Source: Niallia alba
GTDB lineage: Bacteria; Bacillota; Bacilli; Bacillales; Cytobacillaceae
NCBI RefSeq assembly: GCF_012933555.1
Contig: NZ_JABBPK010000001.1
Span: forward strand, 4,442,001 to 4,506,000
DNA: 64,000 nt
Direction of reading: 5' to 3'
Part shown: positions 36,244 to 49,130 of the stretch, one piece after another
How the letters are laid out: every line of letters begins with the position of its first letter
Position numbering within the stretch: position 1 is the stretch's first letter
Position numbers and translations under genes: made by a program
Notes under the pieces: model-generated
Seen by the model: the letters and a program-made list of their open reading frames with translations, nothing else
What the model was told of the DNA's origin: nothing
Databases searched by the model: none

Positions 36244-36299
36244 AGGAGACAGCTGTTGCGAGTCGAATGTCCCCACAAGAACCGTCCCTCTGCTTCCCT
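36244..36299. repeat. GACGGTTCT repeat at M20 gene end
   Basis: Intact right arm CCACAAGAACCGTCCCTCTG followed by CTTCCC; the left arm is worn. The repeat edge touches the stop codon of the peptidase gene at 36298. Confidence 0.75.
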
Positions 36300-37638
36300 A
36301 TGCATAGCTCCGTAATACGGATGCCATAAACTTTATTCCTTCTATATAGTCGGTTAGGTTTATGTTTTCGTTTGGTGCGTGGTTTTGGGAGGTTGCGTTG
36401 CCTACTCCGAATCCAAGGGATGGAATGCCGAATTTTTGACAAAGGTTATACATAGGACCTGTTCCAGCTTGCGAGCGTAAGACTTGTGGCTTTTGGTCAT
36501 AGAACTGCTGAGCAGTGCTGACAACTTTCTCGACAAGTGGATCAGTTAATTCAGTTGTGCCTGCTCTTTGCCCTTTTAACTTGATAACTTCGATGTCACC
36601 AAATCCGTGTTTAACTAAATGCTTTACCAATAGATCGTAAATTTCTTCTGGATCTTGTTCTGATACTAGACGGAAATCGAGTTTTACTTTTGCAGTCGAG
36701 GGAAGAACCGTTTTAGATCCTTCTGCTGTATAACCAGATTCGATCCCGCAAATCGTACAAGTTGGTTGAAAAATTAATTTTTCTTTCAAAGGAAAACCAG
36801 TTAAATTATTTACATAGTTTTTTAACCCTAAATTTTCTAAATCAGCTGCTTCATCAAGTTCCATTTCTTCTGTCAGCTTTCTTTCTTCCTCTGTCAAAGT
36901 TTTGACTTTATCATAAAATCCCTCTATTAATACTTCTTCTTTCGTATTTTTCAATGTAGAAAGGGCCCATACTAATCGCCAAGCCGGATTTTCCACGATG
37001 GCTGCTTTCGCTGAATGCAAGTCAATATTAGCCCCTTTAGCTCTTAACTCTACATACAACATTCCTTTGCAGCCTAAAGTAATCTGCAGTCTCCCATCTA
37101 ATGTTTTAAATCCATTTTCCCAAATACATCCATCTGCTTGGATTTTTTTAGGATTATTGATAATAAACTCTTCTAGATGAGGGCTGCCGATCTCTTCTTC
37201 CCCTTCTACCAAAAACTTCAGATTAATCGGCAATGTACCATATACTGCTTGATACGCATGGACAGCACAAATTCTAGAGAGAAGTGTTCCCTTATTATCA
37301 GCAACACCTCGTGCATATATTTTTCCATCACGGATCTCTGGAGTAAATGGATCACTTAACCATTGATCAATCGGGTCTTCTGGCTGAACATCATAATGAT
37401 TATAAAAGGAGAGAGTTTTCTCCTTGCCATTTTGTATCTCCCCATAAACAACTGGATTTCCTTCTGTTGCCACTAACTCTACTTCTGCCCCTAGGTTCTT
37501 CAAATGGTGCTCAACCATTTCGGCTGTCTCCTTAATCCCTCTATTTTGCGCGGCTACACTCGGTTGCTCGCAAAGATCGAACAACCATTTTACATACATT
37601 TCTTTATGATCTTCAATATATTGATATACTTCTTTCAT
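36298..37638 (-). CDS. M20-family metallopeptidase (dipeptidase-like)
   Basis: A 446-residue zinc peptidase of the M20 CNDP/ArgE type. Metal ligands and catalytic residues: LSFYNHYDVQPEDP (His, Asp), GVADNKG (Asp), EGEEEIGS (catalytic Glu and ligand), and C-terminal SQNHAPNENI (His). It should cleave small peptides or acyl-amino acids in the cytoplasm. ATG 37638 with GGGAG is chosen; the ATG at 37668 lacks a site. It is the last gene of the importer locus, 23 bases after the neighbouring M20 gene. Confidence 0.9.
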   Translation of the reverse strand: MKEVYQYIEDHKEMYVKWLFDLCEQPSVAAQNRGIKETAEMVEHHLKNLGAEVELVATEGNPVVYGEIQNGKEKTLSFYNHYDVQPEDPIDQWLSDPFTPEIRDGKIYARGVADNKGTLLSRICAVHAYQAVYGTLPINLKFLVEGEEEIGSPHLEEFIINNPKKIQADGCIWENGFKTLDGRLQITLGCKGMLYVELRAKGANIDLHSAKAAIVENPAWRLVWALSTLKNTKEEVLIEGFYDKVKTLTEEERKLTEEMELDEAADLENLGLKNYVNNLTGFPLKEKLIFQPTCTICGIESGYTAEGSKTVLPSTAKVKLDFRLVSEQDPEEIYDLLVKHLVKHGFGDIEVIKLKGQRAGTTELTDPLVEKVVSTAQQFYDQKPQVLRSQAGTGPMYNLCQKFGIPSLGFGVGNATSQNHAPNENINLTDYIEGIKFMASVLRSYA

Positions 37639-37661
37639 AGTTGAATTCTCCCTTATACCAT

Positions 37662-38936
37662 TTAACATTTTGATTTATTCTTCTCCAATAATGATGAGGT
37701 AACCTGTTCTAATCCAACTAAACCTAGAATTGTTAATAAGATTTTTTGTGCACCAATGTGGCCATCTGTAGGATTATAATACTCTTGTAATGTATGGAAT
37801 CCTCCCCCTTCACCACCTCCGCCAAGTGTTAAGGCAGGAATACCTAAATGAATAGGAACATTAGAATCGGTACTGCTTGCTTTATCTAAAATCGGCTCAA
37901 ATCCTAGAACGGATGTCGCACATCGAGCAGCTTGCACTATAATAGCATCATTATCTTGTGATCCTGCTGGACGATCACCTACTTTTTCTATTTGAAGACT
38001 TACTTGTGATTCTACGTTCCATCGAGCATTTTCTTCTTCTTTGGCTTGTTCCATCAAATGCAAAAACTTACTTTCGATTATTTCTAGCTCTTCTTGGGAA
38101 TTGGAGCGCAAATCAACTAACATTTCTGCTGTTTCGGCAATGGTGTTAACAGAAGTTCCCCCTTTAATCACCCCTACATTAAAAGTTGTTTTTGGTTCGG
38201 CAGGTGGCTGCAAATCAGAAATTTTAGCAATAGCCCTCCCTAATGCATGAATAGGACTGGGAATACCAAAATTTCCAAAACTATGTCCACCTGGCCCTGT
38301 AAATAAAACGTTAAACCTTTTACTTCCTGTACCTAAATAGGTAATACGGCTTGGATCTCCGGGCTCGATGGAGATAAATCCATCTATATCTTGGCGATTG
38401 TCAAACAATGCCTTCACTCCTCTTAAATCACCCAGTCCTTCTTCTCCAACTGTCGCGCCAATGATGAGATCTCCTTCTGTCTTTATCCCTGCTGCAGTGA
38501 GAGCACGGATAATCGTTAAGACAACGGCTAACCCTCTCCCATCGTCACAAATCCCAGGAGCATAAATTAACCCGTTTTTCCGTATTGCCTTTACATTCGT
38601 TCCTTTTGGGAAGACAGTATCTAGATGTGCACAAACAACAAGGGAAGGACCATTCCCACTTCCAGGCAGCACCCCAAAAACATTCCCTACCTCATCTGTA
38701 GATACTCCTTGAACACCTAGCTCTACTAATCTCTTTTTATACCACTTTCCTTTTTCATCTTCTTCAAAGGTTGGTGCTTCTATTTCCGTGAGCTCAATTT
38801 GTTCCTCAGTCGTTGCTTCATTATCTTCTTTTAAAAACGCTAGCGCTGTTTTGACTTGCTCATTCTGGGCAAGCTTTTTATATACCTGTTCCACCTTTTC
38901 TGTAATAGCCGCTGTTTTTTGTTCTACATTTTCCAT
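37662..38936 (-). CDS. M20-family metallopeptidase, second type
   Basis: A 424-residue zinc peptidase, different subgroup from its neighbour. Key residues: VVCAHLDTVFP (His, Asp), GICDDGRGLAV (Asp), GATVGEEGLGD (Glu-Glu), GPGGHSFGNFG in the dimerization domain and a final His in GGGFHTLQEYYNPTD. It probably trims peptides imported by the adjoining ABC system. ATG 38936 has GGAG nine bases upstream; the GTG/ATG candidates upstream are weaker. Confidence 0.9.
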   Translation of the reverse strand: MENVEQKTAAITEKVEQVYKKLAQNEQVKTALAFLKEDNEATTEEQIELTEIEAPTFEEDEKGKWYKKRLVELGVQGVSTDEVGNVFGVLPGSGNGPSLVVCAHLDTVFPKGTNVKAIRKNGLIYAPGICDDGRGLAVVLTIIRALTAAGIKTEGDLIIGATVGEEGLGDLRGVKALFDNRQDIDGFISIEPGDPSRITYLGTGSKRFNVLFTGPGGHSFGNFGIPSPIHALGRAIAKISDLQPPAEPKTTFNVGVIKGGTSVNTIAETAEMLVDLRSNSQEELEIIESKFLHLMEQAKEEENARWNVESQVSLQIEKVGDRPAGSQDNDAIIVQAARCATSVLGFEPILDKASSTDSNVPIHLGIPALTLGGGGEGGGFHTLQEYYNPTDGHIGAQKILLTILGLVGLEQVTSSLLEKNKSKC

Positions 38937-38974
38937 GTAAATGAACTCCCTCTCCATTAATTTCTTTTTTTCGG

Positions 38975-39976
38975 TTAATCATATAAATGGCAAGCAACGA
39001 CATGTTTATCGTTAACTTGTAATTTTGTAGGTACATCTTGCTTACATCGATCCATTGCAAATGGACATCTTGTATGAAATACACATCCTGTTGGAGGATC
39101 CAATGGTGAAGGCAACTCTCCTTTCAACTGTATTTTTTCTCGTTTTCTTTTTGGATTTGGGATTGGTACGGAGGATAATAAGGCTTTTGTATAAGGATGC
39201 AATGGATTTGCAAACAATTCATCCGTAGTTGCTTCTTCCATCATTCTTCCTAAATACATAACTCCAATCCGGTCTGAAATATGTCTTACAACACTAATAT
39301 CATGGGCAATAAACAGATAGGTTAATTGATACTCTGCTTGAATTTCTTGCATAAGATTAATAATTTGAGACTGAATGGAAACATCTAAAGCAGAAACAGG
39401 TTCATCACAAATGACTAACTTCGGATTAGCAATAAGAGCTCTTGCCAGCCCAATTCTCTGTCGTTGGCCTCCGGAAAATTCATGTGGATATCGATAATAG
39501 TGATCTGCTTGTAAGCCAACCTTTCCCATAATATCCATCACCTTATTCGTATGGTCTTTTTTATCGCCAATCGAATGAATTATCAGGGGCTCTTCTAATG
39601 TATTTCCAATTCGTTTTCGCGGATTGAGAGAAGAATAAGGGTCCTGAAAAACCATTTGTATTTCTTCTCTCATCTTTTTTAATCCCTTACCTTTTTGCTG
39701 AAAAATATCTTGATTTCTATAAATAGCTGTACCTTCCGTTGGATCAGTTAGTCTCATCAATGTTTTGCCTGTTGTACTTTTTCCACAGCCCGACTCCCCA
39801 ACTAATCCATATGTTTCTCCTTCATATAATTGAAAGGAAACATCATTGACCGCCTTAACATAATTTTTTATTCCTCCCAGTTTCCCAAGAGGACTTTTTA
39901 TAGGATAATATTTTTTTAACCCTTGCACATCCAACAGGATTTTCTTCTCTTGTTGTTCAGCTTGAAACATTTGCAT
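38975..39976 (-). CDS. Peptide ABC importer ATPase (OppF/DppF type)
   Basis: A 333-residue ATPase. Walker A GLVGESGCGKSTTGK, signature FSGGQRQRIGLARAL, Walker B LVICDEPVSALD, and the C-terminal oligopeptide/dipeptide transporter extension with GCVFHTRCPFAMDRC, which may bind an iron-sulfur cluster as in related ATPases. It pairs with the preceding ATPase; their genes overlap by 20 bases, which suggests coupled translation. Confidence 0.94.
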   Translation of the reverse strand: MQMFQAEQQEKKILLDVQGLKKYYPIKSPLGKLGGIKNYVKAVNDVSFQLYEGETYGLVGESGCGKSTTGKTLMRLTDPTEGTAIYRNQDIFQQKGKGLKKMREEIQMVFQDPYSSLNPRKRIGNTLEEPLIIHSIGDKKDHTNKVMDIMGKVGLQADHYYRYPHEFSGGQRQRIGLARALIANPKLVICDEPVSALDVSIQSQIINLMQEIQAEYQLTYLFIAHDISVVRHISDRIGVMYLGRMMEEATTDELFANPLHPYTKALLSSVPIPNPKRKREKIQLKGELPSPLDPPTGCVFHTRCPFAMDRCKQDVPTKLQVNDKHVVACHLYD

Positions 39977-40976
39977 AACATTCCTCCTCTTGCGCTATTT
40001 TTTCAAAGTGCCAGCATCGAACCTTTTGATTAGAGGAGGTTTCGGTTAAATCTGGTGCCTTTTCTAAACATACAGAATCAGCAAACGGACATCTTGGTGC
40101 AAACCTACAGCCAATTGGTATACTATCAAGGGAAGGAACAGTACCTTCGATTACATGCAGTTTTTGTGAACGATCTCCCTCCATTTGTGGAATGGACTTG
40201 ATTAATCCTTTTGTGTAAGGATGAAGGGGGCTTTCAAATAAACTTTCTACACTAGCTTCTTCGACGATTTGGCCAAGATACATAACTACTACTCTATGAC
40301 AAAGCTCTGCCACCACACCTAAATCGTGGGTAATAAACATAACGCCCATCTCAAGCTTTTGATTGAGCCCACTAATTAAATCCAATATTTGCGCTTGAAT
40401 CGTCACATCTAATGCTGTTGTTGGTTCATCAGCTATCAGCAATTTAGGCTGACATGCTAATGTCATAGCGATCATGACACGTTGTCGCATACCGCCTGAT
40501 AAATTATGAGGATAGTCATTAACGCGCTTTTCCGGCGACGGAATACCAGTAAGTTTTAGCATTTCGACTGCTCTTTCATAAGCTTCCTTCTTGGTGACAT
40601 CTTGATGAAGCATGATCGCCTCTGCTATTTGAAAACCAATTGTTAACACAGGATTTAAAGAACTAAGAGGATCTTGAAAAATCATGGAAATATCATTTCC
40701 CCGAATCATCTGCATTTTCTTTTTTGAGAGCTTTAATAAATCTGTCTCTCCTTCGAAAAGAATCTCTCCTTCATATTTCACAAGATGCTTTTCATCAAAC
40801 AGGCGCAGAACCGATTGGGAAGTAACACTTTTCCCACAACCTGATTCCCCTACTACTCCAACGATTTCCCCTTTATTGATTTGAAATGAGACACCATCTA
40901 TTGCCGTCACTTTTCCTCTTTCTGTAAAAAAGTGAGTTTTTAAGTCTTTCACATCCAATAACGTATCCGAACTCAT
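39957..40976 (-). CDS. Peptide ABC importer ATPase (OppD/DppD type)
   Basis: A 339-residue ATPase with Walker A VVGESGCGKSVTS, signature NLSGGMRQRVMIAMTL, Walker B LLIADEPTTALD, and C-terminal IGCRFAPRCPFADSVC. It energizes uptake together with the OppF-type partner. Strong AAGGAGG precedes its ATG. It lies 15 bases after the second permease. Confidence 0.94.
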   Translation of the reverse strand: MSSDTLLDVKDLKTHFFTERGKVTAIDGVSFQINKGEIVGVVGESGCGKSVTSQSVLRLFDEKHLVKYEGEILFEGETDLLKLSKKKMQMIRGNDISMIFQDPLSSLNPVLTIGFQIAEAIMLHQDVTKKEAYERAVEMLKLTGIPSPEKRVNDYPHNLSGGMRQRVMIAMTLACQPKLLIADEPTTALDVTIQAQILDLISGLNQKLEMGVMFITHDLGVVAELCHRVVVMYLGQIVEEASVESLFESPLHPYTKGLIKSIPQMEGDRSQKLHVIEGTVPSLDSIPIGCRFAPRCPFADSVCLEKAPDLTETSSNQKVRCWHFEKIAQEEECYANVSS

Positions 40977-40991
40977 GCCCTTCCCTCCTTA

Positions 40992-41897
40992 CTATCTTCC
41001 TTTTTTCCCTTTGCTTATATTAGGATCTAATAAATCTCTTAAACCATCTCCTAACAGATTTAGTCCCAGTACGGATAGAATAATAAGAATCCCTGGAAAT
41101 ACAGTCATCCACCATGCATTAAAAATGACAATTTTCCCATCATATAAAATGTTCCCCCAACTTGGGTTGGGAGCTGGAATGCCCGCACCTAGAAAGCTTA
41201 ACGCCGCCTCTGTAATGATGGCATCTGCGAAAATAAAGGATGCTTGAACAACTAATGGGGAAATCGTGTTTGGCGCAATATGCAGAGCAATAATTCTCCA
41301 AGTACTCGCTCCTTGCGCTCTAATCGCTTCAATATAAGTCTCTTCTCTTATGACCAATGCCGTAGATCGAACAATTCGAGCTACGTTAGGAATAAAAACA
41401 ATCACAAGGGCAATGACTACATTTTGTTTTAATGGTCCTAATGCAGCGACTAAAGCAATGGCTAATAAAACTCCTGGAATAGCCATTAATCCATCACAAA
41501 TGCGCATCAAAATATTATCCAATGTTTTAAAATAGCTTGCGAGTAACCCGATAATTAACCCAATTAAGCAGGCGAAAAATGCTACCATCGCCCCTATTCC
41601 TAAGGAGACTCTTGCACCATATGCAATTCGGGAAAGCAAGTCTCTCCCAAAGTTATCTGTTCCTAGTAGATGATCGACACTTGGAGCTTTCAGACGATTT
41701 TCCACTTGCATTTCATATGGACCGTATGGAACAACGACCGGAGCAATAAGTGCTATTAATGTTAATAGCGTTAGAATAACTCCCCCCGTTACAATCAGCT
41801 TATTACCTATAATTCTGTGAAAAAGTAAAAGACGTTGCTGCTTTTTTAAATCATTCTTACTTTCTATAAACTTCAAATCTCGCTCTAATACACTCAT
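40992..41897 (-). CDS. Peptide ABC importer permease (OppC/DppC type)
   Basis: A 301-residue membrane protein with a cytoplasmic N terminus, about six transmembrane helices and the ATPase-contact EAA motif ECAIRAQGAST-like (YIEAIRAQGASTWRIIALHI). Further OppC marks: HLLGTDNFGRDLLSRIAYGA and the C-terminal LNLLGDGLRDLLDP. It forms the channel with the gene at 41954. Confidence 0.94.
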   Translation of the reverse strand: MSVLERDLKFIESKNDLKKQQRLLLFHRIIGNKLIVTGGVILTLLTLIALIAPVVVPYGPYEMQVENRLKAPSVDHLLGTDNFGRDLLSRIAYGARVSLGIGAMVAFFACLIGLIIGLLASYFKTLDNILMRICDGLMAIPGVLLAIALVAALGPLKQNVVIALVIVFIPNVARIVRSTALVIREETYIEAIRAQGASTWRIIALHIAPNTISPLVVQASFIFADAIITEAALSFLGAGIPAPNPSWGNILYDGKIVIFNAWWMTVFPGILIILSVLGLNLLGDGLRDLLDPNISKGKKGR

Positions 41898-41953
41898 CCA
41901 TTCCCCTCCTCTGCTGTTTATCGCTAAATATCACCATTTTTCACCATAAGCTT

Positions 41954-42904
41954 TTATTGCCTCTCCAATCTCACCCTTGGATCAATGACGCCATATAATA
42001 AATCGACGATTAAATTAATAATGACGTAGATGAAGGTCACAAACAGCACTACTCCCTGAATGACCGCATAGTCTCTTCGCTCTACCGAATTAATGATTAA
42101 TTGCCCAATTCCTGGAATATTAAAGATTGTTTCTGTTACAACAGCCCCAGCTACCAATGAGCCAAAGGTTTGACCAATAACCGTTAATATAGGAAGAAAA
42201 GCATTTCGAAGGGCATGTCTATAAATAATCAGTTTTTCTGTAACACCTTTCGCTCTTGCTGTTTTTATATAGTTGGTATTTAATGTTTCTAATAAACTTG
42301 AGCGAGACATTCGGGAAATCAATGCTGTATGCATCGCTCCAAGGGAAATAGATGGCAAAATTAAGTATTTTAAATGTTCCCATATCCCCTCACTCAATGG
42401 CCGATATCCTGCTACAGGTAACCATTGCAGTTGAACACCAACGAGCAATACTAAAAACAACCCTAGCAAAAAACTAGGTACACACATTCCCAATAAAGAT
42501 ATTCCCATTATCGTCTGATCCGTTCCTGTCCCTCTATGCATGGCAGCTAGAATACCAAGTGGCAATGAAAAAACTAACGATATTATCCCAGCTAAAATAG
42601 CTACAGAAATGGTTGGACCGAGATGACTGGTAATTGCCTCAAGGACAGGCATTTTCATAAAATAAGAAACACCAAAATCACCTTGAACCGCTCCTTTTAT
42701 CCAGTTAAAATACTGTTCGATGATCGGTAAATCCAATCCCATTTCCATTCGCAATTCCTTAATTTGCTGTTCTGTTGCTTCCTCTCCAAGGAGAACAGCA
42801 GCAGGATCGCCAGGCGTTAAGTGAATGATAGAGAAGATAACAACCGATACAACAAATAAAACGGGTAGTAAAGAAAACAATCGATTAACAAGATACATTT
42901 TCAT
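41954..42904 (-). CDS. Peptide ABC importer permease (OppB/DppB type)
   Basis: A 316-residue membrane protein with about six helices. OppB family marks: TPGDPAAVLLGEEAT, MGLDLPIIEQYFNWIKGAVQ followed by GDFGVSY, the EAA loop TARAKGVTEKLIIYRHALRN, and the C-terminal DLLYGVIDPRVRL. AAGGAGG precedes the ATG. Between it and the receptor gene (43056) lies a partial structured repeat, yet the genes are probably one operon. Confidence 0.94.
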   Translation of the reverse strand: MKMYLVNRLFSLLPVLFVVSVVIFSIIHLTPGDPAAVLLGEEATEQQIKELRMEMGLDLPIIEQYFNWIKGAVQGDFGVSYFMKMPVLEAITSHLGPTISVAILAGIISLVFSLPLGILAAMHRGTGTDQTIMGISLLGMCVPSFLLGLFLVLLVGVQLQWLPVAGYRPLSEGIWEHLKYLILPSISLGAMHTALISRMSRSSLLETLNTNYIKTARAKGVTEKLIIYRHALRNAFLPILTVIGQTFGSLVAGAVVTETIFNIPGIGQLIINSVERRDYAVIQGVVLFVTFIYVIINLIVDLLYGVIDPRVRLERQ

Positions 42905-42990: not shown

Positions 42991-44143
42991 CTAAAAAGGA
43001 ACAAGAGTTATAGCTAAGCATTGTCCTATTTAAGTGAGTTATGAAGAAAATGAATTTACTGCGTTTTTTTTACGTCCCATAAAATAGGTCCTTGAAATAC
43101 AGTGAAGTCCTCCAATTTATCTGTAGCCGTGATAATACTTGCATAATGTCCAAATAGGGTATAAGGAACATAGTCATTCCACATATAGGATTGCATCTCA
43201 GCCCAGAGTTCTTTTGCTTCCTCTTTTGTTGCTGCTGTACGAATTTTTTGCAAGGAAGTTGTCATTGTTTCATCATTTGTCCAGCCTACATAATCTGGGT
43301 TAACTACTAATAATTGTGATGGCGTGGTAACATAGCCAGTACCTACAATTAACAAATCCCAATTTTCTGGATTAGCACGTTTTTCGGTCAAAGTTGGCCA
43401 ATCATAGAGTTCTAGTGACACTTTTATTCCCATTTGCTCTAACTGTTCTTTTAATACAACAGAAGAATTGTATTGATGGTCATAATCCCTTGTAGAATAG
43501 AGAATAATTTCTTCGCCATTATACCCAGCATCTTTTAGCATTTGTTTCGCTTTTTCTACATCACCTAAGTTAAAGACTTCTTTTCCCGCATCTGTAGCCC
43601 AGTCTTTTTGTTCTGGACTCATATAACCAGGATCTAAATTATATAAATCTTCACTACCAAAGCTGGCAAGCATAATAGCATTCGCATTAATACCAGTATT
43701 AATTGCTTTTCTTATCTCCGGGTTTGTCATTATCCCTTGCTTTTTGTTATAAGCTACATTCAACGTTCCAGAATCGAAGGAAGCAAAGGTTTTAAGATTT
43801 GGTGTATTCTTTAATTGCTCATAGTTATCAAAAGGCATGCTATTTGCAATATCATATTCTCCTGTTTGAATGCCAGCTAGTCTTGTAGACGAATCTGGAA
43901 CAATATGATAAGTAACATCATCTATATAGACGGTCTTTTTACCGGATAGACCACTGGATTCTTGCTCAGATGCTACATAGTCGGCAAACTTTTCTAACTT
44001 GATATATTGATCTTGTTTCCATTCCACAAACTTAAGTGGTCCAGTACCAATATATTCGGAAACCCCATCTTTACCAGCATCCTCTATTACTTCAGATGGC
44101 ATAATAGCGGGAAACTGCCCTTTTCCTGCCATAATATCTAACA

Positions 44144-45755
44144 CCTGAATCCGTGATAAAAAATAATTCTTCCGATAATTTTAGGAATTCCTTATTTTCT
44201 TGCCATTCGTACTAATTTAAGTTGGATTGATTGTTTTTTGTGTACACTAAATAAAACCTGCTTACCTATAATTTTTTTCAGGTCTTATTACCTATTCAGT
44301 TTCCTAGGCTTATGTTGTAAATGAAAGATACAGTCGTTTAAAAGTAGGAAACCAAGGACTATGATTTCCAAACTTTAAGTAAATTCTTCGGGAATGCTTT
44401 ACCAATTTTGCAGCTAATGTAATCAAATTCTGGATAACCGTTTTTACTCGGCGACGGAAGACCTTTCTTTTAAGCGGCGCATCCCCTGATTTCAGGCTTT
44501 CTTGGCCAATAATCCGAAGGAGATTGTAGGTTAAACATCCAAGATGTAAGATTAATTCATTGGTGGCAAATTTCCCAGAAGGGAAACGTTCTAGGTCTAA
44601 ATCCGTTTTTAATTCACTGTGGAATTGTTCACAAGTGGCATGTTCGTGATAAAGGCTAATTATTTCCTCTGTTTCATTAGGTAGGGTAGTCCAATAGCTC
44701 TCAAACTCAACATCTGGGATTAAGAGGATTTGGCCGTTTTTATCAATCGTTCTTTCTGTTACTTTATAGACTTGGCGAATGGCTTTTTTCATTCCCTTTG
44801 GAGTTGTTTCTAAAGCACCATAGAATACACGTTTTCCTTCTCGCTCCTGAACGCATTTACCGAATTGTTCAGCTACCATGAGCCAGTTTTCAGGCTTTTC
44901 ACGGCGAGGATTTCGTTTAATTATGAAATCGGCCTTTTCATTCACACAAACTTTTAGGTTTTCGACACTATCGTTTCCTGCATCCATACGGACCAATAAC
45001 GATAGATCAGTAATCATCCGAGAATATATAATACTTTTCTCGAGAAATTTCTCAGTATCCTTTTGAACGTGTGTGCTTCCCTCCCGAAGTTCCACATTTA
45101 CAACGTAGCCTTCTTGACCCAAATAGGAGAAGTTAGGGGAATACCCGTCACATCCTTTGTATGTGCGACTAACCCCTTCTTTCTTAGTATTTGAGTTATC
45201 AAATGGCGATACATCAATATCCAGAGGTACGTATGATTTTTTGTCACTAGTAATTGTTGGAGTGACAGGAGAATCAAATTGCCGTATTAGTTTAGCCGAT
45301 TCTTCCAGAACAATGGATTTCCATCCAGTCACCTTGGCAATTTGATCGAGTCGTTGCCGTAGTGTGGGACTTGATGGAACCACTTGAATATCCAATGCAC
45401 GATAAAAGAAGGGATCATCTCGAAATTCTTCGATATGGTCGAAATCATTCTTACCTTGGCACAATAGACCCACATAAGAAGTGGTAACATCCCCATTAAG
45501 AATGGCCGGAGACGACTTGATTTCTGGGACCTTTAAGGATGAAAAACGTTTGTAAAATTTTGTTTTTGATAAAAGCAAACCTATTAAACCTAGACCCGAA
45601 TGGGTCGTTAATGTATCATCGGAATCTTCTAAAATAAACTTAACCAATTTCAACACCTGCCTGGTGAAATAAAATTATCAACATAAATCAGCTGATAACA
45701 TTATTATATCAGGATTTGTGGGCACATTTATTATTAATTACGTCACGGACTCAGG
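44144..45755 (-). mobile_element. IS1380-family insertion sequence, copy B
   Basis: 1612 bp, ends as in copy A at 219-1830 but in the opposite orientation. The 5-bp target duplication is TAACA (44139-44143 and 45756-45760). It interrupts the peptide-binding protein gene. Confidence 0.95.
44310..45656 (-). CDS. IS1380-family DDE transposase, copy B
   Basis: 448 residues, identical in protein sequence to the transposase at 318-1664, including YKGCDGY, VRMDAGND and CEQFHSELKTDLDLERFPSG. The frame is intact, so this copy too should be able to move. It lies in the same orientation as the gene it interrupts, so read-through from the operon promoter could enter it. Confidence 0.93.
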   Translation of the reverse strand: MLKLVKFILEDSDDTLTTHSGLGLIGLLLSKTKFYKRFSSLKVPEIKSSPAILNGDVTTSYVGLLCQGKNDFDHIEEFRDDPFFYRALDIQVVPSSPTLRQRLDQIAKVTGWKSIVLEESAKLIRQFDSPVTPTITSDKKSYVPLDIDVSPFDNSNTKKEGVSRTYKGCDGYSPNFSYLGQEGYVVNVELREGSTHVQKDTEKFLEKSIIYSRMITDLSLLVRMDAGNDSVENLKVCVNEKADFIIKRNPRREKPENWLMVAEQFGKCVQEREGKRVFYGALETTPKGMKKAIRQVYKVTERTIDKNGQILLIPDVEFESYWTTLPNETEEIISLYHEHATCEQFHSELKTDLDLERFPSGKFATNELILHLGCLTYNLLRIIGQESLKSGDAPLKRKVFRRRVKTVIQNLITLAAKLVKHSRRIYLKFGNHSPWFPTFKRLYLSFTT

Positions 45756-46263
45756 TAACACATCAGTAACGGCTTCAGCTAGTTTTAATGTGACCGTATA
45801 CTCATCGGCTGTTTCAAATTTCCCTCCACTCAATAATAATTTTGCTCGAGAGGATTGCTCCAGCCATCTATTCATGGAAACAACAACATCTTCTGAAGTC
45901 ATCTCTTTTCCGTTATGAAACGTTATCCCTTCTCTTAACTTAAACGTATAAGTTAAGCCATCCTCACTTGTTTCAATCGATTCTGCCAACATCGGCACTG
46001 CTTGTTGGTCCTTGTTTTGCGTAACCAATGTCTCATAAATATTTCTCATTATTTCAATAGCATCAGAAGAAGTAGTCAAATGAGCATCCAATGTTGGCGG
46101 CTGGACACTAATTGCAATATTCAAACTCCCGCCATAGGAATCTTCACTTGATGTCCCACCAGAACTTGAGGACTTACTACAACCAACACTTATAAGTAAA
46201 AATAAAACAGAAATAATCATTGCTAACTTTTTCAAAGCATTTCCCCCTCTATTAATATTAGAA

Positions 46264-47601
46264 TTATAAAAAGATTCTGTCTATTTTAGCCGCAGTTATT
46301 TTTTCATTTAAACGAATGACTCCTATATTTCCTTCTATATTGATTTTTGTACCATATGGCTCTGAGAGTTTAGCTAGTCTTAGCAATATGTCCTGATTAT
46401 CTGATAGAACTGGCCAACCTCTTTCATATCTGTCTTTACCATAGCCTAATTCCACTGGATAAAGCTTTAGCTCTATCAATTCTCCTTTTTCCATTGTCCA
46501 AACAGGGATGACTGATTCCCAGATTTTATGATTGATTCCGAATCCTATTGTGTTATTCTTACTTCTTTTATCTAAGGCATCTGCGACATTATCTGTATGA
46601 CTTAATTGATACTTTTCATAAAAGTCTGTTGGCAAATAAGGAACAGTATCATTTTGAAAAATAAAATTACCCAAGCTATAAAATATTGGTCGATTTTTAT
46701 AAATTTCTATCCCTCTTAATACATGAGGTCCATGTCCGATGACAGCATGTGCTCCTTCATCAATGCATACTCTTGCAAATTCCTCTAAAAACTGAGCAGG
46801 TAGTTCCTTCTCTCCTTTTCTCATTTCATGTGCGTGAATACTAACAATAATATAATGAGCTTGCCTTTTTGCTTGTTTGATACTTCTTATAATTCGTTTC
46901 ATATCCTGCTCATCAGGAGTCGTCGATTGACCTTCTTCATTACTTTCTTCGAATAAATATTCGCCAAATGAATAGATTCCATCATTTCTTCTTAAGCGAA
47001 AACCTTCTTTAATTGACAATTCTTGGGTTGCATTTATATAAGTGGCTGAGGCAATTTTTTTTAAAGTGTTCATATTCTCTGATGTAATCTGGTGGATGGT
47101 ATTATAACGTAGTGGATTGATGCCAGGTCTTCCGATCATGTCAGGGCGCTGCTCACCTGCCACCCAAGACTCATGAAAGGTTGATGTGGCTGATATCAAG
47201 GCAACTCTTCCCGTCTCCGCTTCCAAGTATCTTGGTTCGCTAGCATATGCCATATTCTGTCCAGCCCCTGCATGCACAAATCCTGACTGATTTAAATATT
47301 TTTCTGTTGCTTTTAGGCCATCAATAGAATAATCCAATGTATGATTATTCGCCCATGCTAACGTATTAAATCCATAATTCCTTAAATCAGACAGCAATTC
47401 TGGAGAACCCATGGCCCAAGTTCCTCCACTTACCGCTCCTGGGATGCCTTCATTCTGATGGAGCGTTACTTCTAAATTTGTAAATCGAAAATCAGCTTGA
47501 TTAATGATGTCGGCAATTTCTTTATAAGATTTATTTTTTGCTGGAAGTTTACGAGTGATAAAGGAATCACCCGTTGCAGCAAATGTAATCATATCTTGCA
47601 T
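46264..47601 (-). CDS. CapA-type metallophosphatase-fold protein, cytosolic
   Basis: A 445-residue protein of the CapA/PgsA family (calcineurin-like fold). Motifs: FAATGDSFITRK, RFTNLEVTLH, LAWANNHTLDY, VSIHAHEM, VIGHGPHVLRGIE and FYSLGNFIFQ. CapA proteins take part in poly-gamma-glutamate capsule formation, but those carry a membrane anchor; this one has neither signal peptide nor membrane segment, so it should act inside the cell. It is the first gene before a peptide importer and two M20 peptidases, which suggests work on imported peptides or their derivatives. GGGGGAG precedes the ATG. Confidence 0.88.
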   Translation of the reverse strand: MQDMITFAATGDSFITRKLPAKNKSYKEIADIINQADFRFTNLEVTLHQNEGIPGAVSGGTWAMGSPELLSDLRNYGFNTLAWANNHTLDYSIDGLKATEKYLNQSGFVHAGAGQNMAYASEPRYLEAETGRVALISATSTFHESWVAGEQRPDMIGRPGINPLRYNTIHQITSENMNTLKKIASATYINATQELSIKEGFRLRRNDGIYSFGEYLFEESNEEGQSTTPDEQDMKRIIRSIKQAKRQAHYIIVSIHAHEMRKGEKELPAQFLEEFARVCIDEGAHAVIGHGPHVLRGIEIYKNRPIFYSLGNFIFQNDTVPYLPTDFYEKYQLSHTDNVADALDKRSKNNTIGFGINHKIWESVIPVWTMEKGELIELKLYPVELGYGKDRYERGWPVLSDNQDILLRLAKLSEPYGTKINIEGNIGVIRLNEKITAAKIDRIFL

Positions 47602-47834
47602 TTTGCTCCCCCTTTATTTCCATCGTTATATTCGGAATTATTCCTTAATTGTTCCTTAAATTAAAGTATAGAGAGACAAATTATTAAAGTCAATAATGCA
47701 TATTAAAAACACTGTTAGATTATCTGACATAAAAAATCCACCTATCATTTATTACAGAATTATTACGGAAATATAATTTGCAAACCTTTTATTTTGTATA
47801 GTATACTCTAGAAAAAGTACAGTTGGAGGCATAC
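47602..47834. promoter_or_regulatory. Divergent control region of the CapA/importer locus
   Basis: Contains the 11-bp palindrome GGAATTATTCC (47634-47644) near the CapA start. A likely plus-strand promoter is TTGCAA (47778-47783), 18-base spacer, TATACT (47802-47807), for the regulator gene. AATTATTACGGAAATATAATT at 47757-47777 resembles part of the palindrome and may be a second site. Confidence 0.5.
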
Positions 47835-49130
47835 ATGAAGGCAAAAGCTGGTCTGCTAGGACCAAAAGACTCGGTGCAAAATATAATGGAAATTGCTGCA
47901 GATTTTCAATCTAAGCTGGAAGTTATCCCCTATATTTATAACGAACCAAGTGAATCAGAAGCAATTGTGGAACAAAATCAGCATTTTGTTGATTTTTGGA
48001 TATGTACAGGATATACCCCTTACTATCTAACGAAAAAATATCATAAACAACAATTATTCTTTTATCCACGCTTTAATCAAGGGTCCATCGCAATAATACT
48101 ATTAAATATTCTATATAAGGATAGAAAAAATATTGAAAGAATTAGTATCGATAGTTTTTTTAAACAGCAATTTATCGACCTTTACCAGGAAAATCATATC
48201 CCTTTAGGCCAATTACATTTATTACATAATGTAGGACTTCCATCCAGTGAAATTGTAGAATATCATGCTAATCTCTTTCGAACTAGGAAAGTAGATATTT
48301 GTATCACCTCCCTACGTTCAGTTTATGAAAAGCTTGTTTCGATGAATATTCCTGTTTATCGAGTGACTGCTACAAAGGAAAATATTAAACAAACTATTAG
48401 CGAAGGATATGAAAAATGGGAAAAGTTTCATTTCCGTAATTCCCAAATTGCGGTCATGATGATAAAAATCGGGGAGATGATGGATACAGCAGCAAAGGAT
48501 TCGATTTCCTATGATTTACATCGATTAAACTTAAAAATCCAAAACTCGGTATTAGATTTTGCCGAATCTGTTTCAGGATCTTTTATTACGACCGGCATTG
48601 GAAGCTTTCTTATTTTCTCTACAAGGGGCTCGATAGAAAGGAATAGCCAAGAAGGAAATTCTCTTCTTTTCCAGATAGAGCTACTCACAGATTCTAAAGC
48701 AAATGTTGGCATCGGCTATGGGGATACTGCCATGATTGCTGAAAAAAATGCAATCCTAGCACTTGAACACGCCGAAGCATATGGTACCTATACAGGATTT
48801 CTTGTCGATGATAAAGGAAATATCACCGGTCCTCTTCATCAAAAAAAGACGATTGGATTTAATTACAGAGTGACAGATGAAGAACTTAGCAATAAACTCA
48901 AAAAAGCTGGAGTAACCATTAGTACTTACAATAAAATGGCTTCTGTCCAAAAAAATTTAGGAAAGCACGCAATAACAGCAGCAGACATCTCGGAATGGCT
49001 TAAAATGACCGCGAGAAATGCAAGAAGAATACTTACCAACTTAGAAGAACAAGGACTTGCCAAAATAATCGGTGAAGAAGTTCCACTTACAAGAGGAAGA
49101 CCAAGGAAGATTTACCGGATAGGTACATAA
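47835..49130 (+). CDS. Transcriptional regulator with PrpR-N-like and degenerate GGDEF-like domains
   Basis: A 431-residue protein, probably the local regulator. Residues 1-190 alternate helices and strands like the PrpR N-terminal sensor fold (FWICTGYTPYYLTKKY; VDICITSLRSVYEKL, then MNIPVYRVTATKENIKQTI). Residues about 200-330 resemble a GGDEF/cyclase-type domain, ending in VGIGYGDTAMIAEKNAILAL, but the active-site turn reads TGIGSF, so catalysis is unlikely. Residues 365-430 form a winged helix (ITAADISEWLKMTARNARRI, RGRPRKIYRI). ATG 47835 has GGAGG five bases upstream. It is divergent from the CapA/importer locus. Domain names are inferred from pattern only. Confidence 0.7.
   Translation: MKAKAGLLGPKDSVQNIMEIAADFQSKLEVIPYIYNEPSESEAIVEQNQHFVDFWICTGYTPYYLTKKYHKQQLFFYPRFNQGSIAIILLNILYKDRKNIERISIDSFFKQQFIDLYQENHIPLGQLHLLHNVGLPSSEIVEYHANLFRTRKVDICITSLRSVYEKLVSMNIPVYRVTATKENIKQTISEGYEKWEKFHFRNSQIAVMMIKIGEMMDTAAKDSISYDLHRLNLKIQNSVLDFAESVSGSFITTGIGSFLIFSTRGSIERNSQEGNSLLFQIELLTDSKANVGIGYGDTAMIAEKNAILALEHAEAYGTYTGFLVDDKGNITGPLHQKKTIGFNYRVTDEELSNKLKKAGVTISTYNKMASVQKNLGKHAITAADISEWLKMTARNARRILTNLEEQGLAKIIGEEVPLTRGRPRKIYRIGT

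Follow-up and report, generated by a model that had tools for sequence, protein, structure and literature searches.

The PrpR proteins are sigma-54 activators in which an N-terminal sensor domain (PF06506) of about 200 residues with a two-lobe fold is accompanied by AAA+ and Fis domains, and which act at sigma-54 promoters. A GGDEF domain (PF24898) is combined with a DHH phosphodiesterase part in GdpP/YybT, and the one-component regulators PucR/CdaR carry a degenerate GGDEF-like domain (GGDEF_2, PF17853) together with HTH_30. In the E. coli AbgR-abgABT system, the neighbours of a LysR-type regulator are M20 hydrolases and an AbgT transporter.

A regulator encoded in a stretch of 64,000 nucleotides of the Niallia alba genome (hereafter referred to as the window) resembles each of these systems in part. 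The two-lobe fold is located at the N-terminus, as in PrpR, but is followed by a GGDEF-like domain and a winged helix in place of the AAA+ and Fis domains, and the promoters look like sigma-A promoters. The middle domain has the fold and the GIGxGxTAxxA motif in common with the GGDEF domain of GdpP/YybT and with archaeal GTP cyclohydrolase III (PF05165, 2qv6), but the DHH part is absent, the metal ligands are lost in this member, and the domain is likely to be a soluble adaptor. A degenerate GGDEF-like domain in a one-component regulator recalls PucR/CdaR; however, HTH_30 is absent, the sensor domain differs and separate PucR/CdaR proteins are encoded elsewhere in the genome. The position beside M20 and AbgT genes (AbgT transporters are present in 48 of 81 loci of the family) is as in AbgR-abgABT, but the architecture of AbgR is unrelated. 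The regulator belongs to a coherent, widespread and unnamed family of bacterial gene switches and is probably a one-component, ligand-inducible repressor of operons for the uptake and hydrolysis of peptides or N-acyl amides. No paper describing the regulator or its operator was found in a wide search of the open-access literature. The features of the locus are collected in Table 1.

Table 1. Features of the regulator, the intergenic region and the divergent operon (positions in the window unless residues are stated)
Feature	Position	Strand	Details
Regulator gene	47835..49130	+	ATG 47835, stop 49130; 431 aa
PrpR-N-like sensor fold	residues 1-203		
Degenerate GGDEF/GCH-III-like domain	residues 204-325		followed by a linker
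Winged helix	residues 362-429		recognition helix RNARRI 394-399; GRPRK wing 421-425
Weaker predicted promoter, regulator	47778..47807	+	TTGCAA-N18-TATACT
Right operator (predicted), two half-sites 11 bp apart	47752..47770	-	TTCCGTAATAATTCTGTAA; one of two TTCYKTAANNNTTCYKTAA matches
Predicted sigma-A promoter, CapA operon	47665..47693	-	-35 TTGACT 47693-47688, 17-bp spacer, -10 TATACT 47670-47665
Left operator (predicted), three half-sites	47626..47665	+	GGAA-N3-TTCCTTAAT-N2-TTCCTTAA; PWM, Infernal
CapA/PGA_cap gene, first of divergent operon, cytosolic	46264..47601	-	PF09587 E 4e-53; motifs
Peptide-binding lipoprotein gene (SBP_bac_5)	43056..46235	-	split by the insertion sequence: 45738-46235, 43056-44144
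Insertion sequence (IS), 1612 bp	44144-45755		DDE_Tnp_1_4 transposase; ends CCTGA(A/G)TCCGTGA; TAACA target duplication
Dipeptide/oligopeptide ABC importer	38975..42904	-	permeases 41954-42904, 40992-41897; ATPases 39957-40976, 38975-39976
Two M20 amidohydrolase/peptidase genes, operon end	36298..38957	-	37662-38957, 36298-37668; PF01546

The start codon of the regulator gene is preceded at six bases by GGAGG, and an in-frame TTG at 47823 is a less likely start because it overlaps this Shine-Dalgarno sequence. The open reading frame delineated in an earlier reading of the sequence alone and its landmarks, TGIGSF and VGIGYGDTAMIAEKNA, were recovered where that reading had described them. The protein is 89% identical over its full length to one encoded in another Niallia genome (G012) and 89% identical to one in N. 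circulans NBRC 13626; homologues with 22-39% identity are encoded in many Bacillales. The family is present in 31 of 101 related genomes and at 181 loci of a species collection, 80 of which were taken with their flanks for analysis; about 17 full-length matches came from a phylum-wide sample of 299 Bacillota genomes, and further matches from plasmid-collection records of Nonomuraea and Prescottella. S104, D106, H144, T158, G294, G296, R398 and G421-P423 are invariant in all 109 aligned members. The full-length Niallia homologue, the Bacillales homologues and the invariant columns thus identify the regulator as a real gene. A family present in about one-third of the sampled Bacillales genomes and annotated as hypothetical protein gains a function that can be named and a predicted site that can be tested. 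In another Niallia genome the gene is apparently reduced to a remnant (L029, G007:C1:3165667-3165882), which matches the regulator over its 72 C-terminal residues alone (81% identity). Under the title Chryseobacterium sp. ISL-80, the record JAGGQZ010000009.1 contains a regulator and an operon that hardly differ from those of Cytobacillus oceanisediminis; the assembly is probably mislabelled or contaminated.

No part of the protein reaches the cut-offs of Pfam or NCBIfam, none of the PDB sequences is a good match, and the Pfam candidates Ribosomal_S25, TFIIE_alpha and ATLF were rejected as sub-threshold noise or generic winged-helix similarity; the domains were therefore assigned from their folds and from better conserved relatives. 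An AlphaFold2 model built with 29 family members has a mean pLDDT of 86 over the whole regulator. Foldseek matched its first domain to PrpR N-terminal domains (2pju_B/C, TM to target 0.78-0.79; 2q5c_A, 0.75), with an rmsd of 3.2-3.3 over about 200 residues. The sequence-only reading had called this domain a PrpR-N-like sensor, which holds for the fold but not for the sequence family: PF06506 is matched by none of the 29 members at an E-value of 0.1, and hhalign against the PrpR_N profile gives a probability of 31%, out of register. The secondary structure places S104, D106 and T158 at the ends of second-lobe strands and H144 within a helix; we infer that a ligand in the cleft would sit there. 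The winged helix is visible in the model and agrees with the invariance of R398 and GRP421-423 in 109 members and with weak profile matches to MarR and HTH_Crp_2.

For the middle domain, Foldseek retrieved diguanylate cyclases, class III cyclases and GTP cyclohydrolase III (2qv6, rmsd 3.0 over 122 columns), and the fold was unchanged in a separate model of residues 204-431. Sequence support independent of the folding is provided by a match of the family profile to GTP cyclohydrolase III (2qv6) at E 2.9e-4 and by two homologues, one (L028) above the Pfam GGDEF_GdpP cut-off, below which the window protein falls, and one (L030) retaining DIDKFK and GGEEF. Both fold and family motif thus place the domain in the GGDEF/GTP cyclohydrolase III superfamily. 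A PucR-type GGDEF_2 assignment was rejected, there being no Pfam match and an hhalign probability of 1% against the GGDEF_2 proteins of this genome. The proposed order of a PrpR-N-like fold, a degenerate GGDEF-like fold and a winged helix is therefore supported by structure prediction and fold search, neither sensor nor middle domain proving unrelated to the fold suggested for it.

The divergent operon comprises the CapA gene, a peptide-binding protein gene, four Dpp genes and two M20 genes, the last two of which were missed when the locus was first described as CapA/importer. PF00528 names the 41954-42904 permease, the other three importer genes being named from their ORF sequences, and PF01546 matches at G000:C1:4479740-4480633 and 4478310-4479407 lie inside the two M20 ORFs. 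M20 hydrolases are present in 75 of 81 family loci, within two genes of the regulator in 73 and usually with an importer; the 23 M20 domains in the 5.24-Mb genome correspond to an expectation of about 0.08 per 18 kb. The common partner of the regulator family is therefore the M20 genes and not CapA, and the regulon points to uncharacterised M20 and AbgT substrates. Other family loci carry Dpp importers or SSS or DcuC carriers, and six an HpaB-type monooxygenase set; since the operon genes differ between clades (CapA, AbgT, Dpp, HpaB-type monooxygenase), the substrate is not fixed. The model nearest to the CapA protein is that of the lasso-peptide epimerase MslH (NF038314; 294 bits, below the 700-bit cut-off). 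The protein, in which no signal peptide was seen by inspection, retains GDSF, NNHTLD, HAH and GPH motifs resembling Asp11, Asn87-His88-Asp91, His259/His261 and His295 of MslH (PMC10406935). It may epimerise peptides in the cytosol before the M20 hydrolases act on them, which is only a suggestion, as such motifs are common in the superfamily. The insertion sequence splitting the binding-protein gene has five identical copies in the genome, with a further one in the window at 219-1830; a search of four other Niallia genomes gave none. This strain probably has a defective importer.

The 233-bp gap between the CapA and regulator genes (47602-47834) contains repeats phased at 11 bp. A weight matrix (PWM) trained on five loci from other genera, none of them Niallia, scored 34.4 at 47626-47665 against 16.0 at the next best position in the window. 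The motif, refined on 80 loci and present in 65, reads wTTAaGGAA-N3-TTCCTTAAT-N2-TTCCkTAAT, with a predicted operator core of GGAA-N3-TTCC-N7-TTCC and half-sites spaced 11 bp. With an Infernal sequence model of 47 sites, the window species left out, this site, matched at 47627-47664, ranked first in the genome (29.8 bits, E 3.4e-6; next 18.1). The tandem half-site pattern TTCYKTAANNNTTCYKTAA has exactly two matches in the genome, 47641-47659 (+) and 47752-47770 (-), both in this gap, and the right operator is kept in N. circulans NBRC 13626. The same motif precedes quite different operons beside family members in other genera. Across 101 genomes, some of which, or their close kin, supplied training sites (the window genome did not), each of the 15 Infernal matches that exceed 23.5 bits has a family member at a distance of 0.1-7.4 kb; in a genome not knowingly used in training (G095), a site of 21.8 bits is located 134 bp away from the regulator. 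Control of the divergent locus, as proposed earlier, is thus supported, the best predicted operator of the genome lying in the gap between the two genes and not solely at distant promoters, and 47626-47665 is probably the operator of the regulator. A plasmid of Bacillus badius carries a second strong match (L131 4232-4271; 34 bits, PWM) near permease and deacetylase genes, which suggests a wider regulon on that plasmid.

Three recognition-helix types carry three operator types. Members with N395/R397 have GGAA sites (57 loci) and those with N395/Q397 have CGAA sites (nine loci, of which L019 and L020 were scanned after the rule had been seen and were not used to define the class). Among the Q397 members, L072 has a partial site, and L090, from Paenibacillus wulumuqiensis, has no recognisable operator or M20 gene nearby. 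The S395/R397 members (12 loci) have a GGtCATaACC-TTAAAT-N2-ACC type site, weak in L107, with the same 11-bp spacing and also right after the -10 box. Each helix change arose once on the tree, that is, in two evolutionary events; counting the R/Q covariation as nine independent cases was therefore rejected and its weight lowered, so that the covariation supports direct reading of the site by the helix without alone proving it. The three clades constitute a test bed for specificity change in winged helices.

The left operator begins at the end of the CapA promoter and spans the predicted start region of that operon, and the right operator lies just upstream of the predicted promoter of the regulator itself. 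Over 93 sites in several genera, the commonest arrangement is a -10 box that ends at the operator edge, and 37 strong promoters were observed in that slot against 3.7 expected (maximum 8) from shuffles. Recurrence of the operator just behind a sigma-A -10 box across relatives fits a repressor; as a positional argument it suggests repression, short of proof.

From the computed folds, family, neighbourhood, operator and operator position we infer DNA binding, repression rather than activation, a ligand and an adaptor role of the middle domain, as follows. The guarded operons would serve amide-linked nutrients (peptides, N-acyl or aminobenzoyl amino acids). The winged helix would bind TTCCKTAAT-type half-sites, an inverted pair with a tandem copy 11 bp further on, and as the predicted operator follows directly on the -10 box of the CapA-SBP-DppBCDF-M20-M20 operon, bound protein would block the start of transcription. 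The second element, of two half-sites, before the promoter of the regulator points to probable autoregulation. A substrate or hydrolysis product would enter the PrpR-N-like cleft at S104, D106, H144 and T158, the degenerate GGDEF-like domain, probably a dimer-forming adaptor and not an enzyme, would relay the change, and the repressor would leave the start site, releasing the operon.

With the same DNA targets, the protein might instead be an activator, or repress the operon and activate its own gene. The right site lies directly upstream of the weak -35 box of the regulator gene, a class-I-like place, and at some loci with an operator no promoter could be recognised in the usual slot; however, on the operon side the operator occupies the start region of a good promoter (TTGACT-17-TATACT), a spacing that recurs across genera, and this reading appears unlikely. 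It is very improbable that the GGAA/TTCC sites belong to another, merely linked factor, the regulator binding elsewhere or sensing without binding. That each recognition-helix change happened only once leaves room for such a factor, but the sites track the regulator gene, 12 of the 31 genomes that have it, and none of the 70 that lack it, containing a match above 23.5 bits (Fisher p 1e-7), they are at most 8 kb away from it irrespective of the genes around, and their class follows its recognition-helix residues.

The remaining alternative concerns the middle domain of the putative repressor, which might function in sensing a nucleotide (GTP, ATP, ppGpp or a cyclic dinucleotide), the operon then answering to both metabolite and nucleotide. 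The fold is common to GTP cyclohydrolase III and GdpP, the GIGxG glycines are invariant across 109 members, position 211 is Glu in 80 of them, and weak ATPase activity has been reported for the GGDEF domain of YybT/GdpP (PMC3164647). Against this, both canonical metal ligands are replaced in the window protein (K211, G256), K211 and GIGSF standing in place of the DxD-type metal residue and GG(D/E)EF loop of an active diguanylate cyclase; only six of 109 members retain the acidic loop residue, and no role was found for the ATPase in S. aureus GdpP (PMC3164647). A working sensor is thus somewhat unlikely, the nucleotide signal suggested in the sequence-only reading is not borne out, and in the window protein an adaptor is more likely than an enzyme. 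A two-input switch, in which the cleft of the first domain would read an amide or amino-acid ligand and the GTP cyclohydrolase III/GGDEF-like domain would bind GTP or ppGpp without catalysis, is a doubtful variant; if true, amide-scavenging operons would open only with substrate present and a low energy or nitrogen state, a CodY-like logic in a protein unrelated to CodY. The adaptor reading would have the cyclase/GGDEF fold reused inside a putative repressor with a relative that still carries a GGEEF signature; that relative (L030:1474-2838) and the homologue above the GdpP-GGDEF cut-off (L028:1489-2811) may be intermediates with a working nucleotide site.
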